The position numbers and the translations under genes are program-made. Shown here piece by piece: positions 23,423 to 32,808 of a stretch of DNA of 33,225 nucleotides. The stretch covers positions 1 to 33,225 of the forward strand of contig JANWVF010000012.1 of assembly GCA_025056965.1 (NCBI GenBank). Reading direction: 5' to 3'. Position 1 is the first letter of the stretch. Each line of letters begins with the position of its first letter. Below the pieces are notes generated by a model, which ran no database searches, was not told the origin of the DNA, and saw only the letters and a list, made by a program, of their open reading frames with translations. This DNA comes from Thermoflexales bacterium. GTDB taxonomy: Bacteria > Chloroflexota > Anaerolineae > J036 > Brachytrichaceae.

Positions 23423-23450
23423 TTGACAATGCCGGTTTATCGCGTATGCT
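23423..23450 (+). promoter_or_regulatory. Promoter of gltB
   Basis: A perfect TTGACA (23423-23428), a 16-nt spacer and TATGCT (23445-23450). Transcription would start near 23456-23457, leaving a leader of about 240 nt before the gltB ATG. This is the best -35/-10 pair in the window. Confidence 0.75.
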
Positions 23451-23468
23451 TTTGAAAGGTCTTAGTGT

Positions 23469-23516
23469 ATGAACGCCACGAAGCGATTCATCGAGACCGT
23501 CACTCGTGGGAAGTGA
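23469..23516 (+). CDS. Possible 15-residue leader peptide in gltB leader
   Basis: ATG at 23469 opens the short frame MNATKRFIETVTRGK and stops at 23514-23516. It begins about 12 nt after the predicted transcription start, with AAAGG 9 nt upstream. Its codons cover the first hairpin and the left arm of the second, so ribosome position would influence which stem forms. It is not enriched in Glu or Gln codons, so it is not a classical amino-acid attenuator peptide. It may be chance. Confidence 0.25.
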   Translation: MNATKRFIETVTRGK

Positions 23517-23643
23517 GTGATGGTTACTTCGCACATGCGCGACTCGTGTGCGTCACTTGTGGTTCGGCTCACCGATATGTGAGCGAACCGTTAGCCCTAT
23601 TAGATCCAACGTAAGCGTGTCAACGCCTGACACGAGCACAGGG

Positions 23644-23669
23644 GAGCGGCGCAAAAGTCGCTCTTTTTT
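23644..23669 (+). terminator. Intrinsic terminator inside the gltB leader
   Basis: GAGCGGC (23644-23650) pairs with GTCGCTC (23657-23663) around GCAAAA, followed by six T residues (23664-23669). It lies only 29 nt before the gltB ATG and downstream of the gltB promoter, so it should act as a conditional (attenuation) terminator. No other plus-strand gene upstream needs it. Confidence 0.8.
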
Positions 23670-23698
23670 GTTATCGCGAAGTAGAGGAAAGGACGTAC

Positions 23699-26600
23699 AT
23701 GGACAATCAGGGTGATCAGTGTATTCCATGCGCGGAATCGCGCGACGAAGGCAGCCGCAGGCGGCCATTTGCGCCGCTCTACGATGCGCGCTTTGAGCAT
23801 GACGCCTGCGGCATCGGCTTTCTGGCCGATCTGTCCGGCCGGCCCACTCACAAGATCCTCGACGACGGTTTGAAGTGCCTCGAACGCCTGGCGCACCGCG
23901 GCGCATTAGATGCCGACGGCAAGAGCGGTGACGGCGCCGGCGTGCTGTGCTCGCTCCCCAACACCCTCATCAATCGCGAACTGGAGCGCATCGGGCAACA
24001 AGCGCATCGCCCCGGTGACGTTGCCGTGGGCATGATGTTCCTGCCGCGAAATGCAGCCGCGAACGCGCGGGTGCGCGAGATCGTCACTGCCGAGCTAGAG
24101 CGGCGCGAGTTGCCGATCCTGATGTGGCGCACCGTGATGCACGAGCCGAACGTGCTGGGCAAGCGCGCCTTAGAGATGTTGCCCGATATCCAGCAAGTCA
24201 TCGTCGAGCGCCCGTATGGCTTCCGCAGCGAGCTGGAGTTCGATCAACAGCTCTACCTCATTCGGCGGCGCATCGAAAATGCCGTCCGCGCAGCCGGCAT
24301 CGAAGACTTTTACATCTGCTCCTTCTCATGCCGGACGCTGGTCTACAAGGCGCTTGTCTCGGCCACGCAACTGCGCCGCTTCTACATTGACCTGAATGAC
24401 CCCGACTTTAAGGTCTCGCACGTCATCTTCCACCAGCGCTATTCCACCAACACCTTCCCAAGCTGGGATAAGGCGCAGCCGTTCCGCTTCCTGTGCCACA
24501 ACGGCGAGATCAACACGGTGGAAGGTAACCAGAACTGGATGCGCGCGCGCGAGCCAGAACTCAATTCGCCTATCTGGGGCAGCGAGATCGAGCATCTCAA
24601 GCCGATCGTGGACGTGACCAGCAGCGACACCGGTCGGCTGGACAACGTGATCGAGCTGCTCACGCTTGGCGGGCGCGACATTCGCCATGCGATCAAGATG
24701 TGCATCCCGCAGGCCTGGGAGAAGGATCCGGATCTGTCGCCGGCGGTCAAGGGCTTCTTCCGCTACCATGCCTCGCTCATGGAGCCGTGGGACGGCCCGG
24801 CCTCCATCGTCTTCAGCGACGGAACTTTGATCGGCCTGGCGCTCGACCGCAACGGCCTGCGCCCCGCGCGCTACCTGCAAACTAAAGATGGGTTGGTCTA
24901 CGCCGGCAGTGAGATCGGCGCGCTGGATGTAGATCCCGAGCGCATCCTCATCAACGGCAAGCTCGGCCCCGGCCAGATGGTCTGCGCCGACCTGCAAGCG
25001 CGGCGGCTGTTCAACAACGACGAGATCCTCAAGGAACTCGCCATACGCAAGCCCTACCGTGAGTGGGCCTCGCGTCAGCGCGTGCGCCTGGAGGAAGTGG
25101 CGCAAATCGTAATTGAGCAGCCGGCAGTCAACTCCGAGGCCTTGCTCGTCAAGCAGGCGCAGTTCGGCTGGACGAGCGAAGAGCTGACGCTGGTGATCAA
25201 GACGATGTTTGAAGACGGTACCGAGCCGGTCGGCTCGATGGGCGACGACACGCCGCATGCCGTCCTCTCGCCGAAGCCGCGCCCGTTGTTCAACTACTTC
25301 AAGCAGCGCTTCGCCGAGGTCACCAACCCACCCATTGACCACCTGCGCGAAGATCAGGTGATGAGCTTGCGTGTGCTGCTGGGGCGGCGCGGTAATTTGC
25401 TGGCCGAGACGGAGGAGCTCGCCCACCTCGTCCGTTTAAACAGTCCGGTGCTCTCCAATGAGGAGCTCAAGGCGCTTCAGAATTTGGATGATCCCGCTTT
25501 CCGGTCGGTTGTCCTGGACGCGACTTTCCCCGTGCCGGCGCTCGAGCCTCGCTCGTCAAGCTTCGCACTAGAAGCCGCGCGCGATGACGATCGCGAGTGT
25601 TCGCTTGAGCGGGCCGTGCGCAGATTGTGCGACGATGCCGAACGCGCCGTGCAGTTCGGCGCTACCATCCTGATCTTAAGCGACAAGAAGGCCGGTCCGC
25701 AGCGGGCCGTGATTCCAGCGCTGCTGGCCGTCGGCGCGGTGCATCACCACCTGATGCGCAAAGGCTTGCGCAGCCGTGCCAGCTTGGTCGTGGAGAGCGG
25801 CGAGGCGCGCGAGGTGCATCACTTTGCCGTGTTGCTGGGCTACGGCGCGAGCGCTATTAACCCCTACTTGGCGTTGGATACCGCGCGCGAAGCCGTGCAG
25901 CATGGCCGCGTGCGCGATAAATCGCTGAGCGAGAGCGATGTGGTCAAGCGCTACATCAAAGCGGTGGAGAAGGGCATCCTTAAGGTGATGTCCAAGATGG
26001 GCATCGCCAGTGTGGATGCCTACACCGGCGCGCAGATCTTCGAGGCTGTCGGCTTGGCGCCCGAACTGATCGAGGAGTGCTTCACCGGCACACCGTCGCG
26101 CATCGGTGGCATCTGCTATAGGGAGATCGAGGAGACTGTGCTGCAGTGGCATGCCAACGCCTACGGGCGCGGCGACAACGGCGGTGCGCCGTCCAAAGCC
26201 GGCGGCGAGGCTACCGCTCGATTGAAACTCGATCATCCCGGCTTCTACAAAGAGCGCGCCGGCGGCGAGCCGCATGGCTACTCTCAGAAGGCCGTGCATG
26301 CCCTCCAGAAAGCAGTGCGCCTGGGCAACATCTTCGACTACACCGGGGAAACCGAGCTGGTCACCGGCATCGCTCGAACAAAGGTCAAGACCTTTGCCCT
26401 CAACGGCAGCTTCCAGCAGGGTTATGCCCTCTACAAGGAGTTTGCCAATCTCTTCGAGCCGAACGGACAGCCGATCGAGCCGCGTGATTTGATGGAAATC
26501 CGCTCGGATCGCCCGCCGATCCCGATTGACGAGGTGGAGCCACTCAGCAGCATCTTGGCGCGCTTCAGCACGGCGGCCATGTCGCTCGGCGCGCTCTCGC

Positions 26601-28447
26601 CGGAAGCGCACGAGACTCTAGCAATCGCGATGACCCGCCTGGGCGGTTTGAGCAACAGCGGCGAAGGCGGTGAAGAGTCACGGCGCTTCACGGAAGAGAG
26701 CAACAGCGGGATCAAACAGGTGGCCTCCGGCCGCTTCGGAGTGACGCCGGCTTATTTGCTGAGCGCCTCGGAGCTCCAGATCAAGATGGCCCAGGGCAGC
26801 AAGCCGGGCGAGGGCGGCCAAATCCCCGGTCACAAGGTGACCGACCTGATCGCTCGAGTGCGCCATACGGTGCCCGGCGTGGCGCTGATCTCGCCGCCGC
26901 CGCATCACGACATTTACTCGATCGAGGACCTGGCACAGCTGATCTACGATCTGAAGCAGATCAACCCTAGCGCTAAGGTGAGCGTGAAGCTGGTGGCACA
27001 GGCTGGCGTCGGCACCATTGCTGCCGGCGTAGCCAAGGCCATGGCCGACATCATCCTGATCAGCGGCCACAGCGGAGGCACCGGCGCGTCGCCGCTGAGC
27101 TCAATAAAGAACGCCGGCATGCCCTGGGAGATCGGCCTGGCCGAGACGCAGCAGACGCTGCTGGAGAACAACCTACGCAGCCGTGTGCGTCTGCGCGCCG
27201 ACGGCGGCATGCGCACCGGGCGCGACGTGATCATCGCAGCGCTGCTCGGCGCAGACGAATACTCGTTTGGCACCGCCACGCTCATCGCCGAGGGCTGCAT
27301 CATGGCACGGGTGTGTCACTTGAACACTTGCCCGACCGGCGTGGCGACCCAGAAGCCGGAATTGCGCGTCAAGTTCGAGGGCAAGCCGGAACACGTCATG
27401 GCGTACCTGCTATACGTCGCGCACGACGTGCGCGAGCGGCTAGCGCAGATGGGCTATCGCTCGCTCAATGAGATCATCGGACGCTCCGACCTGATCACCA
27501 AGCGCACCCCCTCGTCACACGAGCCGCCGCCGGTGCGCCACCGCGAAGAGATGCTTACCTTGCGCAGCCTTAGCGTTAGGCCGCCGAAGGATCGCCCGTT
27601 GTGCCACAGCGAACCACCTCCGCAGTACCCGCGCAACGCGCTGAACGAGATGATCGTGCAAGATGCGCGCACGGCCATCGAACATCAGTGGCCGATCCGG
27701 CTGCACTACACCATCCGCAACCAGGATCGCAGCATCGGCGCACGCCTGAGCGGCGAGATCACCAAGAAGTATTACGACGGCGGCCTGCCGGCCGGCACGA
27801 TCGAGATCAGCTTCCGAGGTTATGCCGGCCAGAGCTTCGGCGCATTCACCACCCACGGGATGCGCTTGCACTTGGTCGGCGCAGCCAATGACTATGTGGG
27901 CAAGGGGATGCGCGGCGGCGAGATCTCCATTCGCCCGTTTCCCGAAGTGACCTATGTGTGGGCCGACAATCACATCTTGGGCAACACGGCGCTCTACGGC
28001 GCCACAGGCGGCGCCCTGTTCGCCGCCGGACGTGCCGGGGAACGCTTCGCCGTGCGCAACAGCGGCGCATGTGGCGTCGTGGAGGGCGTGGGCGAGCACG
28101 CCTGCGAATACATGACCGGCGGTGTTGTCGTCGTGTTGGGCACTACCGGTCGCAACTTCGCCGCCGGCATGACCGGTGGAATGGCCTTCGTCTATGACCC
28201 TGACGGCACCTTCGTCAACCGCTGCAACACCGAATTGGTGGATGTAGACCGCCTAACGCATCCCGGCATGAAGAAGCTGGTGAAGAGTTTGCTGCGGCGG
28301 CACTACGAGCTGACCAACAGCCCACGTGCCCGCGAGCTGCTGACCAACTGGGAAGAGGCATCACTGTCGTTCCGGCGCGTGTTGCCCAAAGATCGCGTCG
28401 CCGAGATCGAGGCGATCAACGAATTCTCGGACTTCCAGCAGACCTAA
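23699..28447 (+). CDS. gltB: Glutamate synthase large subunit GltB
   Basis: 1582 residues, slightly longer than typical (~1500-1550). AGGAAAGGA precedes the ATG by about 6 nt. A 36-residue propeptide ends at Cys37 (DACGIGF), the N-terminal nucleophile of the class II glutaminase domain (to ~430). The central domain follows, then the FMN-binding synthase domain with SNSGEGGEE, GSKPGEGGQIPGHKV and ISPPPHHDIYS. The [3Fe-4S] cysteines are Cys1200, Cys1206 and Cys1211 (CIMARVCHLNTCPTG). The C-terminal GxGxG beta-helix runs from ~1320. It makes two glutamates from glutamine and 2-oxoglutarate. The small subunit gltD is not downstream: the next gene is convergent. The enzyme may therefore use a GltD encoded elsewhere, or ferredoxin. 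Expression is probably controlled by the leader attenuator. Confidence 0.97.
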   Translation: MDNQGDQCIPCAESRDEGSRRRPFAPLYDARFEHDACGIGFLADLSGRPTHKILDDGLKCLERLAHRGALDADGKSGDGAGVLCSLPNTLINRELERIGQQAHRPGDVAVGMMFLPRNAAANARVREIVTAELERRELPILMWRTVMHEPNVLGKRALEMLPDIQQVIVERPYGFRSELEFDQQLYLIRRRIENAVRAAGIEDFYICSFSCRTLVYKALVSATQLRRFYIDLNDPDFKVSHVIFHQRYSTNTFPSWDKAQPFRFLCHNGEINTVEGNQNWMRAREPELNSPIWGSEIEHLKPIVDVTSSDTGRLDNVIELLTLGGRDIRHAIKMCIPQAWEKDPDLSPAVKGFFRYHASLMEPWDGPASIVFSDGTLIGLALDRNGLRPARYLQTKDGLVYAGSEIGALDVDPERILINGKLGPGQMVCADLQARRLFNNDEILKELAIRKPYREWASRQRVRLEEVAQIVIEQPAVNSEALLVKQAQFGWTSEELTLVIKTMFEDGTEPVGSMGDDTPHAVLSPKPRPLFNYFKQRFAEVTNPPIDHLREDQVMSLRVLLGRRGNLLAETEELAHLVRLNSPVLSNEELKALQNLDDPAFRSVVLDATFPVPALEPRSSSFALEAARDDDRECSLERAVRRLCDDAERAVQFGATILILSDKKAGPQRAVIPALLAVGAVHHHLMRKGLRSRASLVVESGEAREVHHFAVLLGYGASAINPYLALDTAREAVQHGRVRDKSLSESDVVKRYIKAVEKGILKVMSKMGIASVDAYTGAQIFEAVGLAPELIEECFTGTPSRIGGICYREIEETVLQWHANAYGRGDNGGAPSKAGGEATARLKLDHPGFYKERAGGEPHGYSQKAVHALQKAVRLGNIFDYTGETELVTGIARTKVKTFALNGSFQQGYALYKEFANLFEPNGQPIEPRDLMEIRSDRPPIPIDEVEPLSSILARFSTAAMSLGALSPEAHETLAIAMTRLGGLSNSGEGGEESRRFTEESNSGIKQVASGRFGVTPAYLLSASELQIKMAQGSKPGEGGQIPGHKVTDLIARVRHTVPGVALISPPPHHDIYSIEDLAQLIYDLKQINPSAKVSVKLVAQAGVGTIAAGVAKAMADIILISGHSGGTGASPLSSIKNAGMPWEIGLAETQQTLLENNLRSRVRLRADGGMRTGRDVIIAALLGADEYSFGTATLIAEGCIMARVCHLNTCPTGVATQKPELRVKFEGKPEHVMAYLLYVAHDVRERLAQMGYRSLNEIIGRSDLITKRTPSSHEPPPVRHREEMLTLRSLSVRPPKDRPLCHSEPPPQYPRNALNEMIVQDARTAIEHQWPIRLHYTIRNQDRSIGARLSGEITKKYYDGGLPAGTIEISFRGYAGQSFGAFTTHGMRLHLVGAANDYVGKGMRGGEISIRPFPEVTYVWADNHILGNTALYGATGGALFAAGRAGERFAVRNSGACGVVEGVGEHACEYMTGGVVVVLGTTGRNFAAGMTGGMAFVYDPDGTFVNRCNTELVDVDRLTHPGMKKLVKSLLRRHYELTNSPRARELLTNWEEASLSFRRVLPKDRVAEIEAINEFSDFQQT

Positions 28448-32735: not shown

Positions 32736-32808
32736 GGGCCTGTAGCTCAGCGGTAAGAGCAGTCGGCTCATAACCGATTGGTCGCTGGTTCGAATCCAGC
32801 CGGGCCCA
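32736..32808 (+). tRNA. tRNA with CAT anticodon, probably tRNA-Ile2 (lysidine type) rather than elongator Met
   Basis: 73 nt fold into a full cloverleaf: a 7-bp acceptor (32736-32742 with 32801-32807, one G-U), D arm GCTC/GAGC, a 5-bp anticodon arm with loop CTCATAA, and T arm CTGG/CCAG with TTCGAAT. Discriminator A at 32808; CCA is not encoded. G1-C72 pairing rules out initiator tRNA. The acceptor has C4-G69 and C5-G68, the pairs known to favour lysidine synthetase TilS, and the body resembles bacterial tRNA-Ile(CAT). The Ile2 assignment is an inference. Confidence 0.9.

Follow-up and report, generated by a model that had tools for sequence, protein, structure and literature searches.

A structured gltB leader in a Chloroflexota family shares a hexaloop with glnA and amt leaders and is a candidate ANTAR-type attenuator

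The analyzed window (33,225 nt) is contig C32 of the 3.13 Mb genome of a Thermoflexales bacterium. It contains the gltB gene preceded by a leader in which about 210 nt of structured RNA lie between a promoter and an intrinsic terminator (Table 1). The first-pass annotation had named the downstream gene as gltB and described a near-consensus promoter, five hairpins and a U-tract terminator ahead of the start codon. NCBIfam confirmed the gene, and the other elements were recovered as well. The promoter was found once (0.3 expected from shuffles), the five hairpins are present in a leader fold that is better than those of 200 of 200 shuffled sequences (z −2.99), and the terminator segment folds with a z of −3.1. 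Since the gene upstream of gltB lies on the opposite strand, the terminator cannot belong to that gene. The leader had also been described as an unrecognised element. In agreement with this, Rfam covariance models, known riboswitches and the T-box included, found nothing in it either at the gathering level or at E 10; a tRNA gene at 32736-32808 is the sole Rfam match in the window.

Table 1. Features of the gltB leader in the window and of the related glnA leaders
Feature	Position	Strand	Remarks
gltB promoter, −35 TTGACA (23423-23428), 16 nt spacer, −10 TATGCT (23445-23450)	23423..23450	+	
Predicted transcription start	23457	+	6-7 nt past the −10 hexamer
Invariant 5' block CTTAGTGTATGAACGCCACGAAGC..TTCATC	23461..23492	+	Invariant columns in 8 genomes
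Hairpin 1, AUGAACGC[CACGAA]GCG-A-UUCAU	23469..23491	+	C-G-closed hexaloop CACGAA (23477-23482); presumed protein-binding site
Hairpin 2	23493..23527	+	3 covarying pairs in the leader alignment
Hairpin 3	23530..23552	+	Leader alignment
Hairpin 4, GUUCGGCU / AGCGAAC in the window, GGCCGAAC in relatives	23562..23588	+	Leader alignment
Possible closing helix, UUAGUG (23462-23467) with CGUUAG (23589-23594), enclosing hairpins 1-4	23462..23594	+	Tentative
Hairpin 5, GUGUC[AACGCCU]GACAC	23617..23633	+	Leader alignment
Intrinsic terminator and U-tract	23640..23669	+	29-31 nt upstream of the gltB ATG (23699)
Purine-rich ribosome-binding site AGAGGAAAGGA	23683..23693	+	Sequence
gltB, glutamate synthase large subunit, controlled gene	23699..28447	+	NCBIfam NF008730, 1747 bits
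glnA leaders L157-L175 (own genome L119/L157, G000:C159)			Hexaloop/terminator switch

A DNA search of 60 relatives showed that the gltB leader is kept in seven of eight congeners with 74-77% identity. The aligned region opens a few bases ahead of the −35 box and extends into gltB, and the DNA upstream of the promoter gave no alignment among the congeners, indicating that the leader is conserved and not its neighbourhood. The promoter block ATCGCGTATGCTT is retained in sister genera. In the eight aligned leaders, eight helices were found with 96.4% of cells paired, and five pairs showed two-sided changes, compared with 1.3 expected from shuffles. Hairpin 1 is nearly invariant, so that covariation within the genus says little about it, and hairpins 2-4 are clearly retained only within the genus. 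A search of 84,980 species genomes for CTTAGTGTN5CGCCACGAA returned only 10 contigs, of which seven are titled Chloroflexi, Anaerolineae, Thermoflexales or Roseilinea and three are unrelated. No further copy of the leader was found in the own genome; it occurs once per genome, at gltB only.

Two alternative pairings proposed earlier did not survive this alignment. Pairing of GAGCGA (23581-23586) with the terminator 3' arm is specific to the window, because relatives carry GGCCGAAC in place of its GAGCGAAC, and the overlap of stems 1 and 2 (GGUCU/AGACC) is likewise found in the window only. An antiterminator formed by the hairpin 2 5' arm and the terminator 5' arm was also considered and rejected, being no better than shuffles in most leaders (p 0.76 in the window); only the leaders L030 (0.013) and L027 (0.03) stand out. 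In the congeners, CGUCGCUC is common to hairpin 2 and the terminator 3' arm. The L030 leader (genome G007) carries two copies of the 11-mer GUCGCUCUUUU, one in the 5' arm of hairpin 2 and one in the 3' arm of the terminator.

The same leaders bear on translation control, suggested earlier as one mode of the switch, in the form of a leader peptide. Ribosome-coupled attenuation on a frame from the ATG at 23469 could draw on the presence of this ATG with MNATK in eight leaders. However, the frames vary from 15 to 48 codons with frameshifts, the ATG is lost in other relatives (L030, L048), no run of Gln or Glu codons is present and the congeners have no ribosome-binding site at this frame. No short frame that is both conserved and enriched in the regulatory amino acid was found in the leaders, and this explanation was rejected as extremely improbable.

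The gltB gene is present in 28 of 28 family genomes. Leaders of other genera differ from that of the window, yet many retain a terminator directly before gltB: by the strict score, a terminator lies less than 200 nt from gltB in 12 of 25 relatives, compared with 3.3% of 460 control upstream regions, which argues that attenuation of gltB transcription is old in the family. The leader has the arrangement of a general intrinsic-terminator attenuator, with a conserved terminator between promoter and gene. The earlier proposal of an attenuator acting on nitrogen assimilation therefore held up, as this terminator is kept in several genera and the leader itself is conserved; transcription attenuation at gltB is well supported by these sequence comparisons. 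In the genome G013, a second stretch (L010, G013:C9:207151-207233) matches the gltB terminator with the first gltB codons. The gltB gene of this genome is located on a different contig, and L010 looks like a remnant or a rearranged copy.

The core of hairpin 1, GC[CACGAA]GC, is an instance of a wider hexaloop, C[CNNGAN]G, found in the gltB, glnA and amt leaders of the family. As this had been noticed by eye, an unbiased scan without preselection was performed over 7680 patterns (closing pair and three fixed loop bases), and the C-G closing pair with C..GA. ranked first. The C-G-closed C..GA. hexaloop was found in 14 of 16 glnA, 21 of 27 amt and 16 of 25 gltB leaders versus 12.1% of control upstream regions. 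At one leader per genus and gene the count was about 15/22 (p about 1e-9), although the binomial p values ignore shared ancestry and serve as guides only, the counts from related genomes not being independent. Hexaloops with A..GA. or G..GA. showed no enrichment. The top patterns for loops of 4, 5 or 7 nt were weaker, and those of 8 nt came mostly from glnA, where they represent the same hairpin with the closing pair opened. Some gltB leaders, G013 and G011 among others, have no clear hexaloop.

A better argument than the binomial figures is the change of stem around a constant loop. The gltB loop type occurs on different stems in other genera (accgc[CACGAA]gcggt, cgtc[CACGAA]gacg, tgcatc[CATGAT]gatgca and cgc[CATGAT]gcg), glnA leaders contain gtcac[CAGGAC]gtgac, and amt leaders contain gcgc[CNNGAC]gcgc or gtgc[CACGAC]gcac. 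The stems thus vary (cgc/gcg, accgc/gcggt, tgcatc/gatgca, gtcac/gtgac, gcgc/gcgc, gtgc/gcac) and the loop type remains constant. The amt leaders (L088-L094, L136-L156) carry this hexaloop type with more hairpins and terminator-like elements upstream; one of them, L144, has a second hexaloop, AGC[CACGAA]GCC, at a terminator base. In L105-L108, which concern a second glutamine-synthetase-type gene, the terminator sits between a binding-protein gene and this gene, and in several species its apical loop is CGCGAU or CGCGAC with a G-C closing pair.

Upstream of glnA the hexaloop is part of a compact switch. In all 16 family leaders read, a C[CNNGAY]G hairpin overlaps the 5' arm of the terminator; two g8 leaders have U at loop position 1. 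In the columns of the alignment of these 16 leaders, the hexaloop hairpin pairs 5-9 with 16-20 and the terminator pairs 12-23 with 43-54. As the two structures share bases, only one of them can form. The hairpin is 98.8% paired with two covarying pairs, and the terminator is 96.3% paired with seven covarying pairs, a result matched by 0 of 500 shuffles. Together they take the shape of a classic terminator/antiterminator switch and show a way in which the hexaloop can act. A covariance model of the switch recovered the glnA leaders of this family and gave few, weak matches elsewhere. Three of the five matches in other families (L184, L186 and L187) were inspected closely and showed no sign of a glnA leader; the L186 match is an end-of-gene terminator.

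These observations bear on two further explanations. If the gltB terminator were simply leaky and constitutive, a short regulatory RNA and a fixed level of gltB would result, and a terminator near a strong promoter can indeed release small RNAs. Such terminators, however, are found again ahead of gltB and glnA in several genera, and the competing hairpin of glnA covaries, which makes this explanation very unlikely. A gltB-specific riboswitch, in which hairpins 1-4 closed by UUAGUG/CGYUAG would bind a metabolite such as glutamine or 2-oxoglutarate as the aptamer, with the terminator as expression platform, would fit the multibranched consensus fold, the long invariant 5' block and the single copy per genome at gltB. 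Against this, the closing helix shows only one-sided changes in the alignment of eight leaders, Rfam gives no match, hairpins 2-4 are not clearly conserved beyond the genus, and the most conserved hairpin is common to glnA and amt. The first-pass annotation had named a riboswitch as one candidate; a ligand-binding riboswitch is not our first choice, since the hexaloop precedes glnA and amt on other stem sequences, as a protein-recognised site would be expected to. We regard the riboswitch as unlikely, and less likely than an ANTAR-type attenuator. The shared hexaloop points to a common RNA-binding protein, most likely the single ANTAR protein of the cell, that would control gltB, glnA and amt, rather than to a lone riboswitch at gltB.

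The hexaloops that ANTAR proteins bind have A1 and G4 and lie in leaders of nitrogen genes, where binding blocks terminator formation; ANTAR targets cluster on nitrogen genes, glutamate synthase included (PMC3369931). According to the crystal structure of Walshe 2022, the minimal ANTAR site is one hexaloop, in which G4 is held by Arg142, Lys149, Glu160 and Tyr164 of EutV and Met172 enters the loop (PMC8934654). The own genome encodes one ANTAR protein, and a REC-ANTAR protein was found in 26 of 28 family genomes, one in each. It shows full-length similarity to EutV (6WSH/6WW6, E 1.6e-36), and the G4-contact residues R142, K149, E160 and Y164 are retained in all 25 family proteins read. In the same 25 proteins the loop-plug Met172 is replaced by Arg, which may represent a single change; the domain also has one residue missing. 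In other Anaerolineae, the ANTAR domain pattern was matched in 17 of 18 neighbourhoods fetched, and all matched domains have Met at position 172; Thermoflexales ANTAR domains score 56-65 bits, and those of other Anaerolineae reach 92. The ANTAR gene neighbourhoods of the latter group yielded no nitrogen-gene terminator with a canonical loop. That the loop base and the loop-plug residue have both changed in one lineage suggests their co-evolution. The gltB leader L045 (G009) contains the adjacent hexaloop hairpins ACACACU[AAUGAG]AGUGUGU and UGCAUC[CAUGAU]GAUGCA, which are close to a canonical ANTAR pair.

The same nitrogen-regulon attenuator could be read by an RNA-binding protein other than ANTAR. 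Loop position 1 departs from the described ANTAR loop, the ANTAR protein also occurs in many Anaerolineae in which the model of the glnA attenuator gave no comparable match, and two genomes, G009 and G011, carry the hexaloop before amt or glnA with no ANTAR gene detected. The missing genes may nevertheless be gaps in draft assemblies, and the single conserved ANTAR protein with intact G4-contact residues, as well as a gene set that is the same as in known ANTAR regulons, speak against another reader, which we consider fairly unlikely.

The favored reading, which we hold with slightly better than even confidence, is that the gltB leader is an ANTAR-type, probably protein-controlled attenuator in a nitrogen regulon with altered loop specificity. 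RNA polymerase would start near 23457, synthesize the structured RNA and by default stop at the terminator. Under nitrogen limitation, an RNA-binding protein would let it pass; the most likely reader is the single REC-ANTAR response regulator, with the C[CNNGAN]G hexaloop in hairpin 1 as its predicted binding site. Known systems served as the model for both the direction of control and the signal. Hairpin 1 lies about 150 nt upstream of the terminator and might act on it through GC[RRRGGA]GC, a second hexaloop at the base of the terminator that in the window is weak or missing. The C[CNNGAN]G type of hexaloop, found also before glnA, where it excludes the terminator, and before amt, would place gltB in a nitrogen-assimilation regulon. 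The tests support conservation of the leader and terminator, the repeated appearance of the hexaloop, covariation in the two glnA structures and presence of the ANTAR protein; from these and from known systems we infer ANTAR binding, the direction and signal of control, and the route from hairpin 1 to the gltB terminator.

A bolder extension, which is possible but doubtful, is that C[CNNGAN]G is the code of a separate nitrogen regulon of this Chloroflexota family, read by a C1-shifted (Met172 to Arg) ANTAR domain or by another RNA-binding protein, and that gltB adds a genus-specific multibranched, perhaps metabolite-sensing domain. The known ANTAR targets in the cited literature come from other phyla and have A at loop position 1. 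If correct, a Chloroflexota regulon with another loop base would span ammonium uptake, glutamine synthetase and glutamate synthase, and the ANTAR domain altered at the loop-plugging residue would make the ANTAR protein-RNA code directly testable. It would also show how nitrogen assimilation is controlled in the mostly uncultured Roseilinea-type Chloroflexota.

Several known systems resemble the gltB leader in part. CsrA/RsmA sites have the consensus ACARGGAUGU. They share a six-base loop in a small hairpin, and GGA occurs in some glnA loops here, but such a site was rejected, as GGA is not conserved because loop position 3 is variable in C[CNNGAN]G. Glutamine riboswitches (glnA, glutamine-II) and T-boxes likewise control nitrogen or amino-acid genes from leaders, often via termination; the gltB leader has no Rfam match to either even at E 10. 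Actinobacterial ANTAR RNAs (PMC8164766) show a similarly relaxed loop conservation and sites also away from terminators, but their stem-loops are dual, more than half of the set showing A1 and G4.

The closest likeness is to the targets of EutV (eut, Enterococcus faecalis), NasR (nasF, Klebsiella) and AmiR (amiE, Pseudomonas). Shared features are the C-G-closed hairpin with a six-base loop and G4, the intrinsic terminator between promoter and gene, the nitrogen genes, a REC-ANTAR protein with the same G4-contact residues and, in glnA, the overlap of the hexaloop hairpin with the terminator 5' arm. The window itself has a hexanucleotide loop on a stem of at least 3 bp (cgc[CACGAA]gcg) with G at position 4, within the top pattern C..GA., and its genome encodes an ANTAR protein. 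Where these targets have A1, the window and most relatives have C (sometimes U), with A at position 5. Instead of an adjacent pair there is usually one clear hexaloop, which in gltB lies far upstream of the terminator, and the ANTAR domain differs by the Arg for Met172 and the missing residue. A strict scan of gltB leaders for dual hexaloops (two stems of at least 3 bp, A1 and G4, linker about 2-25 nt) found none; a weak gc[RRRGGA]gc is present over the terminator 5' arm in some congeners, and no convincing second hexaloop overlaps the terminator in the window. As A1 and the dual hexaloop are absent, full membership among ANTAR targets is not assigned, and the gltB leader is best described as one that would work like an ANTAR antiterminator target.
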